Assembly: GCF_013376415.1 (NCBI RefSeq)
Contig: NZ_WYET01000004.1
Location: forward strand, 744,001-808,000
Length of the DNA: 64,000 nt
DNA from: Flagellimonas chongwuensis
Lineage (GTDB): Bacteria > Bacteroidota > Bacteroidia > Flavobacteriales > Flavobacteriaceae
Reading direction: 5' to 3'
The notes beneath the pieces were generated by a model. The model was not told the origin of the DNA. It made no database searches and saw nothing but the letters and a program-made list of their open reading frames with translations. The translations under genes and the position numbers were made by a program. Below, piece after piece: positions 33,811-43,068 of the stretch. Each line of letters starts with the position of its first letter. Position 1 is the first letter of the stretch.

Positions 33811-33835
33811 TGTCAGGTCGAGCGCAGTCGAGACC
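33811..33835 (+). repeat. REP-like palindrome, left copy beside the GIY-YIG gene
   Basis: A 25-bp unit made of TGTCA then GGTCGA (33816-33821), loop GCGCAG and TCGAGACC (33828-33835). The arms pair apart from one bulged G, giving an imperfect hairpin typical of REP elements. The copy at 34166-34190 is its exact reverse complement, and a third copy in mutB (41031-41055) differs at one position. Confidence 0.85.
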
Positions 33836-33844
33836 CACCAAATC

Positions 33845-34165
33845 ATGAACCTATACTTTGTATACATATTAAAATGTTCTGATGGATTGACCTATACTGG
33901 TATCACAGATAATATTGCCCGTAGGTTAGCCGAACACCAAAATGGAACAAACCAAACGGCTTTCACTTATCGAAGAAGACCCGTCATGCTTATCTTTCAA
34001 CAAGAATTCAATGATGTTTTGCAAGCCATCTATTTTGAAAAGAGAATAAAGAAATGGAGCGCCAGAAAGAAGTTTGCTCTTGCTGCGGGCGACATGGACC
34101 TTTTACAAATATTATCTGAGTGTAGAAATGCTTCTCACTGCAAGTTTAATCCAAACCAAGATTGA
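33845..34165 (+). CDS. Small GIY-YIG family nuclease
   Basis: A 106-aa single-domain GIY-YIG protein of the UPF0213/YhbQ-like type: FVYILKCSDGLTYTGIT carries the motif as VYI...YTG, followed by RRLAEHQNG (catalytic Arg region), TAFTYRRRPV and IYFEKRIKKWSARKK (Glu of the active site). These domains nick or cut DNA. The gene is exactly bracketed by two perfect inverted copies of a 25-bp imperfect palindrome; the right copy starts at the base after its stop codon. This arrangement recalls REP sequences next to their RAYT transposases. A role in spreading this repeat is inference. Confidence 0.88.
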   Translation: MNLYFVYILKCSDGLTYTGITDNIARRLAEHQNGTNQTAFTYRRRPVMLIFQQEFNDVLQAIYFEKRIKKWSARKKFALAAGDMDLLQILSECRNASHCKFNPNQD

Positions 34166-34190
34166 GGTCTCGACTGCGCTCGACCTGACA
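34166..34190 (-). repeat. REP-like palindrome, right inverted copy
   Basis: Exact reverse complement (25/25) of 33811-33835, starting immediately after the TGA of the GIY-YIG gene. The two copies make an inverted-repeat frame of about 380 bp around that gene. Confidence 0.85.
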
Positions 34191-34250: not shown

Positions 34251-35012
34251 ATGGTAGTAAAGTTTATTGAATCCACCTATGATTCAGTTAAGGATAAGCT
34301 CAAAAATCCATTTTATGGAACCCTGTTCATTGTTTGGGTAATTAGAAACAGAGAATTCATCTTCAATGTTTTTTTCAATGAGAATGTTAATTCAGATAAA
34401 CGTCTTGAAATCATTAGGTCTCATTTTTTGAGTTGGGATTCTCTATTAAGTTTTATTGGAACCATCTTTATTAGTTTAGGGCTAATGGTTCTTATTTATT
34501 TTTCATTGAACCTATCAAGACTTATTGTAGAATTATCCGAAAGAGTATTAAAGCCTAGGATTCAAAAAATATTTAGTGAGACAAGTATTGTTTCACGAGA
34601 AGAATATCAAACAGTTATTAACCAAAGAGATCATTACATTAAAAGGTTTAATGAAGAGAATCAGGAAAAGTTAAGGTTACAAGAAGAATTAGATACCAAA
34701 GGTGTGACTAAACAGAACATAGATGGTCAAACCTCGGAAAACTTAGACACTCCGAACAAAATTGACATTATCTTTTTTCAAGACTGGGATGACAATCTAC
34801 AGTTCAGTTTTAAAAAATTAATTGCAGAAGTCAACAATCATCACTCTGCTGGAGAAGTTGAAGAAAAAGTTGGAGATGAATATGTCGAAGAATTCCGAGG
34901 AAGAGATTTAATTGAAATATACTATGACGGTGGAGTTCCTTATTATAAATTCACTCCACTTGGTATAGCTGTAAAAGATTTCTTTAATAAAAATAATATT
35001 AGGGCACTATAA
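34251..35012 (+). CDS. Unknown two-helix membrane protein with coiled coil
   Basis: A 253-aa protein of no recognised family. A hydrophobic segment near residues 22-40 is followed by a stronger one at ~68-92 ([18 protein letters not shown]), then a charged helix/coiled coil (~95-150, [20 protein letters not shown]) and a soluble C-terminal domain (~165-253, with [19 protein letters not shown] and [20 protein letters not shown]). The coding DNA is more A/T-rich than its neighbours. It lies just beyond the repeat-framed GIY-YIG gene and overlaps the convergent pccB end by 6 nt. It could be recently acquired. No function can be assigned. Confidence 0.6.
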
Positions 35013-39292: not shown

Positions 39293-39625
39293 ATGGGCCT
39301 AAAGGAATTGAGAAAAAAGAAATGGTTCAAGATTATGACCAACACCTACATTCTGGTGCTGACCATTTTTGTGATATGGATGGCTTTTTTCGACACCAAT
39401 TCCCTTATGATTCATTTGGAGCTCGAGAACGAAATCGATAAGTTGGAAAAAGAAAAGGATTTCTTGAAAAGCGAAATTGCCAAGGATAAGGAAATCTTGA
39501 AAAAGATGTCCGATGAAAAAGAACTTGAGAAGCTTGCCCGCGAGAAATACTACATGAAAAAGGACAACGAAGAAATATTCCTTATTGAATATGAAGATAG
39601 TCTAAAAAACAAGCAAGATGAGTGA
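39293..39625 (+). CDS. FtsB/DivIC-like septum formation initiator
   Basis: A 110-aa bitopic membrane protein: a short basic N-terminus (KELRKKKWFK), one transmembrane helix (~residues 13-33, TYILVLTIFVIWMAFF), then a coiled coil (~45-85, LENEIDKLEKEKDFLKSEI) and ARekYYMKKdNEEIFLIEY, the usual end of the DivIC/FtsB family. Such proteins link FtsL and FtsQ in the divisome. The ATG at 39293 is preferred to a TTG at 39284 that overlaps udk. It overlaps mutA by 8 nt. Confidence 0.88.
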   Translation: MGLKELRKKKWFKIMTNTYILVLTIFVIWMAFFDTNSLMIHLELENEIDKLEKEKDFLKSEIAKDKEILKKMSDEKELEKLAREKYYMKKDNEEIFLIEYEDSLKNKQDE

Positions 39626-41003
39626 CACTGGCCTATTTAGTGAATTCCCAGAAGTATCCACCAAACAATGGAAACAAAAAATCCAAGTGGATCTTAAAGG
39701 TGCGGACTATAACAACACCTTGGTCTGGGAATCTCTGGAGGGCATCAATGTTAAACCATTTTACAATCAAGATGATTTAAAAAGCATCCCAACTTTTTCC
39801 TTGCCCAAAAACCATGATTGGTCCGTGGCCCAAGTCATTTATGTGGGTGACGAAAAAAAATCGAACACCAAAGCCCTCACAATCCTTGAAAAAGGCGTCG
39901 AAAGTTTAATTTTTACCATTCCCAATGAAACCACGGATTTTGAAGTCCTGCTTTCGAACTTGGACATGGAGAAAATTGAACTCTATTTTTATTTTGAATT
40001 TTTGAGCTTGGAGCCCATCAAAAAATTGGTAGGTCTTCTTAGCGACAAAAAGGCAAAAGCCCATTTGAATATTGATATTATCGGGCACTTGACCAAAGTG
40101 GGCAATTGGTATCACAATCTAGAAAAAGACCACAAATTACTTACCGATTTAGTCTCGCTCGGAACATCGGATATCTCAATTGTTGGGGTCGATGCTTCTC
40201 GCTACCAAAATGCCGGTGCCAATATGGTACAGCAATTGGCATACAGTTTAGCTCACGCCAACGAGTATCTAAACCATATTGTCACTTCGAGCACAGTCGA
40301 GAAGTCTTTTCCCGTTACCTTTAAGGTGGCCGTGGGAAGCAATTATTTCTTTGAAATTGCAAAAATAAGAGCATTGCGGTGGCTTTGGAAAAGTCTGGCA
40401 TCAGCATATGGAATAGAAAACGAGTGCAACATTCTGGCCATTCCGTCCAAACGCAACAAAACGCTTTACGATTACAATGTGAACATACTCCGCACCACAT
40501 CAGAATGCATGTCGGCAGTATTGGGTGGCGCGGACGCTGCTTGCAACCTTGCTTATGATGCGATTTACCACAAGGACAATGAGTTTGGGGAGCGAATCGC
40601 ACGCAATCAACTATTACTCTTAAAAGAGGAAGGATATTTCTCCGAAGCATCTCAAATGGCGGAAGGAGCGTATTATATTGAATCACTCACCAATCAGCTG
40701 GCAGAGAAAGCATTATCGCTATTCAAACAAATAGAAAAAACTGGCGGGTTCTTGGATGCTTTGAAAAAAGGTACCATCCAACAGAAAATCAAGGAGAGCG
40801 CCGAAAAGGAACAGCATCTTTTTGATGAAGGCAAGATAGTTTCACTCGGTACCAACAAGTATCAAAATCCACAAGACCGGATGAAGGAGAACTTAGAACT
40901 TTATCCGTTTGTAAAGACCAAGGCGCGAAAAACCATCATTGAACCCATCATAGAAAAAAGACTGGCCGAAGCATCCGAACAAAAAAGATTGAACGATGAG
41001 TAG
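39618..41003 (+). CDS. mutA: Methylmalonyl-CoA mutase, small subunit
   Basis: A 461-aa protein of the MutA type: it keeps the TIM-barrel part (e.g. [62 protein letters not shown]) but lacks a cobalamin-binding C-terminal domain, as expected for the non-catalytic subunit. It pairs with MutB to form the heterodimer that isomerises methylmalonyl-CoA to succinyl-CoA. A palindrome of the REP-like family (40284-40305) encodes residues 223-230 (TSSTVEKS) in frame. Overlaps its neighbours by 8 nt on both sides. Confidence 0.92.
40284..40305 (+). repeat. REP-like palindrome inside mutA
   Basis: The arms ACTTCGA (40284-40290) and TCGAGAAGT (40297-40305) pair except for one extra G, around loop GCACAG. 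The architecture, loop (one base different) and bulge position equal those of the repeats at 33811 and 41031, while the outer stem bases differ, so this is a sister subtype. It is translated in frame. Confidence 0.65.
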
Positions 41004-43068
41004 AAAGGACCTTCAACATCTGGAATTGTCTGTCGGGTCGAGCGCAGTCGAGACCCTCAATTACGAGCACGAGAATTTTGCCGCCGGCATTTCCCCTTTC
41101 CTTCGTGGCCCCTACTCCACCATGTATGTTCGCAGGCCTTGGACCATTCGCCAATATGCAGGTTTTTCAACTGCTGAAGAAAGTAATGCATTTTATAGAA
41201 GAAATTTAGAAGCTGGCCAAAAAGGACTCTCCGTGGCCTTTGACCTACCCACCCACCGTGGTTACGATTCGGACAATGACCGTGTGGTTGGAGACGTGGG
41301 AAAAGCAGGGGTTGCTATAGATTCCATTGAGGACATGAAGATTTTGTTCGATGGCATTCCTTTGGACAAAATGTCCGTTTCCATGACCATGAACGGGGCC
41401 GTGATTCCCATTATGGCCTTTTACATTGTGGCAGGTCTGGAGCAAGGTGTGTCCATGGAGCAACTTTCGGGAACCATTCAGAATGATATTTTGAAAGAGT
41501 TCATGGTTCGGAACACTTATATCTACCCCCCCACTCCGTCCATGCAGCTAGTGGCCGATATTTTTGAATTTACCAGTAAACATATGCCTCGTTTCAACAG
41601 CATCAGTATTTCTGGTTACCACATGCACGAAGCGGGCGCTCCTGCATCCATGGAATTGGCCTACACTCTTGCCGATGGTATCGAGTACATCCGAACAGGA
41701 ATTAAGGCAGGGCTTAAAATTGATGAATTTGCACCACGACTATCCTTTTTCTGGGGTATTGGCATGAATCATTTTGCCGAGATTGCCAAAATGCGAGCAG
41801 GCCGAATGCTTTGGGCCAAGTTGTTAGAACAATTCAATCCCACCAATCCAAAATCTTCCATGCTCCGCACCCACAGTCAGACGAGTGGATGGAGCTTAAC
41901 AGAACAAGACCCTTTCAACAACGTGGCCAGAACAACTATCGAAGCCATGGCGGCGGCTTTTGGAGGTACGCAAAGCCTTCACACCAACGCATTGGACGAG
42001 GCCATTGCATTGCCAACGGATTTCTCTGCGCGTATTGCGAGAAACACACAAATCTATCTGCAACAGGAAACCCATATCACCAAAACGGTAGATCCATGGG
42101 CAGGTAGCCACAAAGTGGAACAACTGACCCAAGAAATTGCAGAAAATGCCTGGGAGCTGATTCAAGAAGTGGAAAAGTTGGGCGGAATGACGAAGGCCAT
42201 CGAAAAAGGCATCCCAAAAATGCGGATTGAAGAAGCCGCAGCAAAAAAACAAGCGCGCATCGATAGCGCACAGGATATTATTGTCGGGGTGAACAAATAC
42301 CGACTGGAGAACGAGGACGACCTTCAAATTTTGGAAGTCGACAATGCAAAGGTTCGAAAACAACAAATGACCCGTTTGGACCAAATCCGAAACAGTAGGG
42401 ATTCCCAAAAAGTGGAAAAAGCACTCGAAGCTATCCGCATCGCGGCCAAAAAGACCATGGAAAATAATTCCGACCGCGGAAATTTATTAGCTTTAGCAGT
42501 AGAAGCAGCAAAAGAGCGAGCTACCTTAGGTGAAATTAGCGATGCCATGGAAAGTGCGTTCGGACGCTACAGAGCAAAAATTCAATCCTTTACCGGAGTG
42601 TATTCCAAAGAAATCAAAAACGACGAAAGCTTTGAAAATGCCCGCAAATTGGCAGATGCCTTTGCGGAGCAAGAAGGGCGCAGACCACGTATTATGGTGG
42701 CCAAAATGGGTCAGGATGGGCACGACCGTGGTGCCAAAGTAGTGGCCACGGGTTATGCCGATCTCGGTTTTGATGTAGATATTGGACCATTGTTCCAAAC
42801 CCCGGCCGAAGTTGCCAAACAAGCGGTAGAAAACGATGTGCACGTATTGGGGATTTCCTCACTTGCAGGAGGCCACAAAACATTGGTGCCCGAAGTGGTT
42901 CAAGAACTCAAAAAATACGGACGCGAGGACATTATGGTCATCGTTGGCGGTGTGATTCCAAAGCAGGATTACAGTCATTTATTGGACAATGGGGCCGTTG
43001 CCGTTTTTGGACCCGGCACCAAAATTGCCGATGCAGCTACGCAAATCTTGAACATTCTTTTAGATTGA
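40996..43068 (+). CDS. mutB: Methylmalonyl-CoA mutase, large (catalytic) subunit
   Basis: A 690-aa adenosylcobalamin enzyme. The barrel part shows [53 protein letters not shown] and [17 protein letters not shown]; the C-terminal cobalamin domain has [20 protein letters not shown] (the DxHxxG motif) and [11 protein letters not shown]. It converts (R)-methylmalonyl-CoA to succinyl-CoA with MutA. The N-terminal residues 12-20 (SVGSSAVET) are encoded by a REP-like repeat lying in frame at 41031-41055, before the conserved core. The gene starts 8 nt inside mutA. Together with the pcc operon nearby it forms a propionate-to-succinyl-CoA route; the epimerase is not in the window. Confidence 0.95.
41031..41055 (+). 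repeat. REP-like palindrome inside mutB
   Basis: Matches 33811-33835 at 24 of 25 positions (G for A at position 5). It begins 35 nt after the mutB start codon and is read in frame as residues 12-20, upstream of the conserved enzyme core. Confidence 0.85.

Follow-up and report, generated by a model that had tools for sequence, protein, structure and literature searches.

A single-domain GIY-YIG nuclease gene framed by dispersed palindromes in Flagellimonas chongwuensis: a possible nuclease counterpart of REP/RAYT pairs

The stretch of Flagellimonas chongwuensis DNA analysed here (64,000 nucleotides, referred to below as the window) carries, between genes for a Gfo/Idh/MocA oxidoreductase and a carboxyl transferase, a small nuclease gene framed by two palindromes (Table 1). 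An initial annotation of the window described the palindromes as identical 25-bp sequences in opposite orientation, one of them adjoining the stop codon, and the coordinates confirm this: the stop codon of the nuclease gene occupies positions 34163-34165, so the downstream palindrome starts on the very next base. The repeat arms around the gene extend to 29 nt (97%). A 253-aa open reading frame at 34251-35012, which separates the nuclease unit from the carboxyl transferase gene, has no Pfam or PADLOC match and no NCBIfam match over cut-off. At two sister loci that have the nuclease gene (L151 and L152), the distance from the oxidoreductase stop codon to the carboxyl transferase gene is 568-572 nt, which is too short for this reading frame, so it is absent from that interval.

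Table 1 Features of the nuclease locus and dispersed palindrome copies in the window
Feature	Position	Strand	Details
Upstream type A palindrome, TGTCAGGTCGAGCGCAGTCGAGACC	33811-33835	+	25 bp; tag TGTC (33811-33814), A, bulged hairpin GGTC-GA-GCGCAG-TC-GA-GACC
Single-domain GIY-YIG nuclease gene, 106 aa	33845-34165	+	Pfam, alignment, dN/dS
Downstream type A palindrome	34166-34190	-	Identical to the upstream 25-mer, inverted; tag outward; adjoins stop codon
Dispersed type A copy	40280-40305	+	1 mismatch in 16-nt core; in frame in methylmalonyl-CoA mutase small-subunit gene (39618-41003)
Dispersed type A copy	41031-41055	+	In frame, N-terminus of methylmalonyl-CoA mutase large-subunit gene (40996-43068)

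The protein belongs to the GIY-YIG superfamily, scoring 59.1 bits against the Pfam model PF01541 (curated cut-off 22.6), which is its sole Pfam match at an E-value of 0.001. Seven residues (Y7, Y17, R27, H31, E65, W71 and K76) are invariant in an alignment of 19 sequences; in a 31-row alignment Y17, R27 and E65 remain invariant and Y7 is conserved in at least 90% of rows. Y7, Y17, R27 and E65 are those that we take to be the catalytic tyrosines, arginine and glutamate of the GIY-YIG fold. The AlphaFold2 model of the protein has a mean pLDDT of 88, and among solved structures those closest to it are the UPF0213 GIY-YIG proteins 1zg2 and 1ywl (E 4e-5 and 3e-4), with a weaker match to the branched-DNA nuclease Slx1 (E 0.008 and up). 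Sequence and fold alike point to the two UPF0213 proteins, the titles of whose database entries mention no association with repeats. Orthologues within the genus are under strong purifying selection, with a median dN/dS of 0.09 (21 of 136 pairs gave a usable dS). This is the only short GIY-YIG gene in the genome, the other three of four GIY-YIG matches lying in open frames of 440-611 aa. We also considered whether the nuclease might be part of a defence system, for which no PADLOC or NCBIfam match was found at an E-value of 1, or be carried by phage; none of 124 pattern matches in a scan of viral contigs encoded a relative.

The palindrome is not confined to the two copies that frame the gene. 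Allowing up to three mismatches, the window contains four occurrences of its 16-nt core, where 0.12 are expected and 100 shuffles gave at most one. Across the whole genome, an 18-nt core is found at 38 places with up to two mismatches, its reversed control at none, and TGTCNNNNYGAGCGNAGTCGAR, the tagged form, in 35 copies, many copies being intergenic. Within the family 80 of 149 genomes contain this tagged form, and within the genus 68 of 71, with control matches at zero in every genome.

The initial annotation also proposed that each copy can form a bulged hairpin. Type A copies are compatible with an imperfect hairpin that has a 4-bp variable stem, two unpaired bases (GA), two further pairs and a 6-nt loop, and that lacks a constant tail. 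Folding of the window copies as DNA with ViennaRNA gave stabilities no higher than those of shuffled sequences (z 0.03 to 0.13), and with so unremarkable a folding energy it is covariation that argues for the hairpin. Judged from the aligned sequences, the stems do covary: in 80 of the 141 distinct copies, 97.1% of stem cells are paired (72.6% when shuffled) and 124 cells carry two-sided changes (36.8 when shuffled), with all four variable stem pairs contributing. Moving the stem partner by one to three columns abolishes the pairing excess. Two of the five covariation measures did not exceed shuffles, namely pairs with a two-sided change (4 versus 4.0) and further pair types (11 versus 13.1), and the two inner pairs are uninformative because the search pattern fixes them. 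The closing pair (Y-R), which was left free in the pattern, is C-G or T-A in 175 of 179 copies at the loci sampled at that stage; in the same 179 copies the loop reads GNA, N being C in 131, G in 33, T in 8 and A in 7. At four loci (L149, L159, L161 and L199) the loop base of the type A hairpin gives way, each time in the same position, to a second palindrome of 22 nt (CCCGCCTG..GACGGGCAGGC-like), which is either a nested element or an apical extension of the hairpin. Two of these loci (L159 and L161) were among those retrieved for the nuclease gene.

Homologues of the nuclease were identified at an E-value of 1e-5 in 90 of 149 genomes of the family. The initial annotation suspected a dispersed repeat system driven by the nuclease rather than a chance neighbour, and chance can be set aside on the strength of the shuffles, the reversed control and the way in which homologues are framed elsewhere. 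We defined the clade of the window protein as those homologues scoring above 105 bits, giving 31 of the 96 homologue copies examined. A palindrome core, detected with a loose motif, lies within 250 bp of 30 of these 31 copies, on both sides in 21 cases, on one side in nine and on neither in one, so that proximity of gene and palindrome is the rule in the clade. Framing can also be detected de novo, with no motif supplied: inverted repeats scoring at least 14 frame 20 of the 31 copies, 14 of 65 other homologues and 1 of 1274 shifted control windows. Among named genomes, 45 of 80 homologue loci are framed compared with 2 of 1038 control windows. The framed loci in this set include some from Nitrospinota (L265 and L271), Eremiobacterota (L290) and Cysteiniphilum (L275), several of the non-Bacteroidota loci coming from metagenome bins.

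The tag points away from the gene at the nearest upstream site of 110 of 137 genes and at the nearest downstream site of 97 of 127. Of 52 intact type A pairs, 33 have their downstream palindrome, measured from the edge of the motif, no more than 6 nt from the stop codon. On the upstream side, seven of 11 readable loci in the genus have two direct copies 52 bp apart and three have one copy plus a decayed one; the window has one.

Four types of palindrome accompany four subclades of the nuclease in the genus. Type A has a TGTC tag and GAGCGNAGTCGA, type B a YGTC tag, GAGTG, a long apical arm and TATCGA, type C a TGTC tag and GAGCYTGTCGA, and type D an NNGG tag and GAGCGNAGTCGA with a loop base that is mostly T. 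The flanks had been inspected before types B, C and D were drawn up, and each subclade label was assigned by the closest labelled protein row, with rows close to unlabelled ones counted as D. As types A and D have their hairpin core in common, their tags are directly comparable. Among inward sites, 168 of 186 near clade A genes carry the TGTC tag, and 38 of 40 near clade D genes carry one ending in GG; each of the 21 type D loci in the genus carries one or more inward core palindromes. In the window's genome, NNGG-tagged copies lie 39-92 bp from type A copies at three places (C1:405396, 407505 and 529256 of G000), despite which no subclade D gene is found in this genome among the matches listed.

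Palindrome type follows the protein tree closely. On a FastTree phylogeny of 177 proteins (138 rows labelled, 39 unlabelled), types A, B and C require three changes compared with 48.6 when shuffled. In a larger set of 214 rows (108 of them unlabelled), the GTC tag (84 rows) and the GG tag (22 rows) are separated by a single change on a branch with support of 97, compared with around 20 changes when shuffled; on this evidence the switch between the TGTC and NNGG tags falls on a single branch of the tree. Within clade A, the closing pair (C-G or T-A) also follows the tree, with three changes compared with around 26. These trees are limited to 106 columns, and the agreement between tree and labels may in part be mere linkage of the gene to its flanking DNA.

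Linkage of gene and flanks alone cannot explain why copy number throughout the genome tracks the matching gene. Whether it tracks the clade was a check suggested in the initial annotation, and neither of the two outcomes named there as refuting is seen: clade members do lie near the palindrome, and the palindrome is not equally common where the gene is lacking. The repeat is found in all 27 family genomes with a clade A gene, at a median of 19 copies. At least five copies are present in 22 of these 27, compared with 25 of the 122 others (p 5e-13 for copy number, framing copies included). Within the genus, the median number of type A copies is 36 in the 22 genomes with a clade A gene and 14 in the 49 without, among the matches listed (p 1e-4). 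When all four types are considered in the 71 genus genomes, each palindrome is associated with its matching gene (p 1.1e-4 for A, 4.8e-6 for B, 7.5e-6 for C and 3.3e-8 for D), whereas the 12 mismatched combinations are weakly related (p at least 0.039). With two framing copies per gene removed, the matched values are 3.3e-4, 1.2e-3, 1.4e-5 and 3.5e-5 for A to D, the mismatched ones are at least 0.035 and, of the 24 possible pairings, the matched one has the highest summed AUC. Removal of three framing copies gives 5.2e-4 for A, 0.051 for B, 2.5e-5 for C and 2.6e-3 for D, with two mismatched values at 0.019 (palindrome B with gene D) and 0.032 (palindrome A with gene D); type B is therefore the weakest leg of the comparison. 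Subclade genes were classified among the matches listed, down to an E-value of around 5e-8, a genome in which the gene is cut by the contig end (G194) being counted as without. Types B and D are undercounted: stem letters are set in the pattern used for B, and the YYGG pattern used for D overlooks tags like ACGG (12 of the 40 near D genes).

Being species of a single genus, the 71 genomes cannot be treated as independent. Phylogenetically independent pairs, which draw on 30 of the 71 genomes and number only eight, are too few to reach significance: type A differs in the same direction in none to three pairs and in the opposite direction in none, type D in the same direction in three to five and in the opposite direction in none to two. 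Among the matches listed, 11 of the 49 genus genomes without a clade A gene nevertheless have at least 30 copies, with 75 in G190 and 68 in G162. Type C palindromes number 16-27 in three genomes (G176, G186 and G191) that have no subclade C gene among the matches listed, and these are candidates for loss of the gene. We regard the matching of gene subclade to palindrome type as strongly supported; it suggests recognition, and perhaps spreading, of the repeats by the enzyme.

In two complete relatives (G180 and G189), palindromes no more than 150 bp apart form 19 pairs with tags outside, none with tags inside and two in the same direction. The spacing is 51-52 bp in 12 of the 19 tags-outside dimers, whose geometry is that of the gene-bearing unit. 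Ten of the 19 are one and the same 73- or 74-bp heterodimer (L335-L337, L341 and L344-L349), most of them enclosed in a further inverted repeat whose ends are GTCTAAAAAGC-like and which may be a MITE that carries the dimer. No dimer preference is seen among the loci that supplied the 179 copies above (10 tags-outside, eight tags-inside and 27 same-direction). An array at C1:43935-44669 of G189 (L353) consists of alternating palindromes around 180 bp apart. Orientation was compared by eye with GC skew in 10 stretches of 20 kb per genome; there is a regional bias in G189 and none in G180, and thus no consistent strand bias pointing to replication in these two genomes.

Palindromes also lie inside conserved genes. 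In-frame copies are found in four, encoding the two methylmalonyl-CoA mutase subunits in the window, arginine-tRNA ligase (L006) and HemW (L029), and alignment of the two mutase copies in 30 of 71 genus genomes reveals every stage from intact to unrecognisable. Such copies weigh against the notion that the palindromes are RNA-level elements, such as terminators or mRNA stabilisers, that frame the nuclease gene by accident. The many intergenic copies in the window's genome would suit elements of that kind, yet framing lies far above that of control windows, and neither the matching of types nor the switching of tags is to be expected of passive neighbours; we consider this explanation very improbable indeed.

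How the gene itself has behaved can be traced in the genus, where 23 clade A genes occur in 22 genomes among the matches listed. The 17 closest of these (at least 71% identity) share a single syntenic position next to the oxidoreductase gene, the mutase genes or both; 16 run in the same direction and one (in G183) lies nearby and opposite. The remaining six, more distant (59-67%), lie at other places and may reflect older movement or transfer. At 30 oxidoreductase loci examined (from 38 matches), the nuclease gene is adjoining in 12, one of them cut by the contig end, and absent from 18. Several gene-less loci still bear a whole palindrome at the site (L130 and L131) or part of one (for example, L129, L137, L145, L147 and L149). 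The single syntenic site, together with the palindromes and scars at gene-less loci, indicates that the window copy is an old resident that has been lost repeatedly. Synteny speaks against recent hopping of the window orthologue and for vertical descent with loss, and with an orthologue so old, vertically inherited and often lost, dispersal would now be slow or mostly past.

This history bears on two further explanations. GIY-YIG enzymes are known homing endonucleases, and a free-standing one could have invaded a palindrome dimer as a passenger, the palindromes being mobilised by some other enzyme; the tags-outward geometry common to the gene unit and the dimer is as such a passenger would leave it. 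Four subclades with different palindromes, genome-wide copies that follow the matching subclade, and closest orthologues at one site rather than at many palindromes all sit badly with homing, which we think improbable. A stronger competitor is recognition without mobilisation. Here, the nuclease would be a resident enzyme specific for single-stranded DNA, of the Ssn type discussed below, and the palindromes useful genomic marks (modulating natural transformation or recombination, for instance) that spread by other means. Strong purifying selection, closest orthologues that descend vertically at a single site and the matching of palindrome types are all compatible with this. By itself, however, it explains neither the in-frame copies in four conserved genes nor the recurrent 51-52-bp dimers nor the two-sided framing of the enzyme's own gene, and we judge it unlikely, though less so than homing.

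The reading that we favour, and hold to be somewhat probable, is that gene and palindromes constitute a nuclease/repeat pair resembling a REPtron, in which a GIY-YIG enzyme stands in place of the HUH/Y1 transposase and the palindrome is its recognition site. A small sequence- and structure-specific GIY-YIG endonuclease would recognise the palindrome that frames its own gene, with TGTC as the unpaired tag and a short bulged hairpin behind it, and would presumably do so in single-stranded DNA. The "REPtron" would comprise the gene and two outward-tagged palindromes, with a GIY-YIG enzyme replacing the HUH/Y1 transposase of REP/RAYT pairs, and the scattered single palindromes and inverted dimers would be its non-autonomous satellites. 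The protein may bind this hairpin and cut it close to the tag, and recombination or repair after the cut could disperse copies. The nuclease may thus drive the dispersal, a possibility raised in the initial annotation; against this, many genomes without the gene keep many copies, the closest orthologues stay at one syntenic site, and independent pairs agree in direction but are too few for significance.

The resemblance to REP/RAYT pairs had been pointed out from the start, and it extends further than the layout around the gene. TnpA-REP processes its cognate single-stranded REPs, whose palindromes are bulged and preceded by a conserved motif, and has co-evolved with them (PMC8266576). The tags-outside dimers of the two complete relatives have the arrangement of REPINs (PMC3116915). 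The present system has the same tagged, imperfect bulged hairpin, dispersed copies, inverted dimers, inverted framing and clade-matched enzyme and repeat. It departs from REP/RAYT and REPINs in its enzyme, which is GIY-YIG rather than an HUH/Y1 tyrosine transposase, and in its tags, which are TGTC, YGTC or NNGG rather than GTAG (PMC8266576; PMC3116915). As the enzymes are unrelated, the window pair can be said to work like a REP/RAYT pair, not to be one.

A second point of comparison is provided by the CGTC-tagged REPs of Di Nocera et al. (2013; PMC3733652). Its authors state that these REPs apparently lack a dedicated transposase, having found no transposase gene flanked by them; the repeats (families 1-4) carry CGTC or TGTC tags, have stems of 8-9 bp, loops of 4-5 and tails that are mostly CCA, are reported in Bacteroidetes including G. 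forsetii, and form dimers mostly in one orientation (HH). Set against that description, the CGTC/TGTC tag is found in types A to C and not in type D, and type A differs in its 4-bp stem with GA bulge and two further pairs, its 6-nt loop and its lack of a constant tail (PMC3733652). With the tag in common and stem length not, the palindromes described here are relatives of CGTC-tagged REPs by layout at most.

A search of the literature by title and opening of abstract found no work on GIY-YIG enzymes and dispersed palindromes in bacteria. The nearest precedent is the Ssn/NTS system of Neisseria. A 2025 paper reportedly describes the Ssn proteins as GIY-YIG site-specific single-strand nucleases associated with multicopy NTS repeats; Ssn is said to be a single-domain GIY-YIG protein with a cognate repeat present in many copies and homologues in many bacteria. 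The combination of a GIY-YIG enzyme with a cognate multicopy repeat would be common to both, "cognate" being by association only in the present case. What sets the present system apart is its four subclades, switched tags, REPIN-like dimers, intragenic copies and occurrence mainly in flavobacteria. If that description is right, the principle of such an enzyme/repeat pair is already established, and the novelty here lies in the matching across four subclades, the switching of tags, the dimers and a connection with the REP question.

A broader proposition would be that single-domain GIY-YIG proteins are the missing mobilising enzymes of YGTC- and NNGG-tagged palindromes, a second and independent invention of the REPtron in which specificity for tag and loop has changed over the protein tree, and which occurs in Bacteroidota as well as on Nitrospinota and Eremiobacterota metagenome-assembled contigs. 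This we put forward tentatively, as possible but rather doubtful. The framing of GIY-YIG genes by tagged palindromes and a genome-wide copy number that follows the subclade do make testable the question, left open by Di Nocera et al., of which enzyme, if any, serves CGTC/TGTC-tagged palindromes (PMC3733652). The genus offers four natural enzyme/repeat pairs, of which A and D differ in tag and loop base on the same core and are suitable material for specificity swaps. If the proposed reading is true, it would add to the known site-specific nucleases a group with readable recognition rules, and would account for in-frame peptide insertions in conserved flavobacterial proteins.
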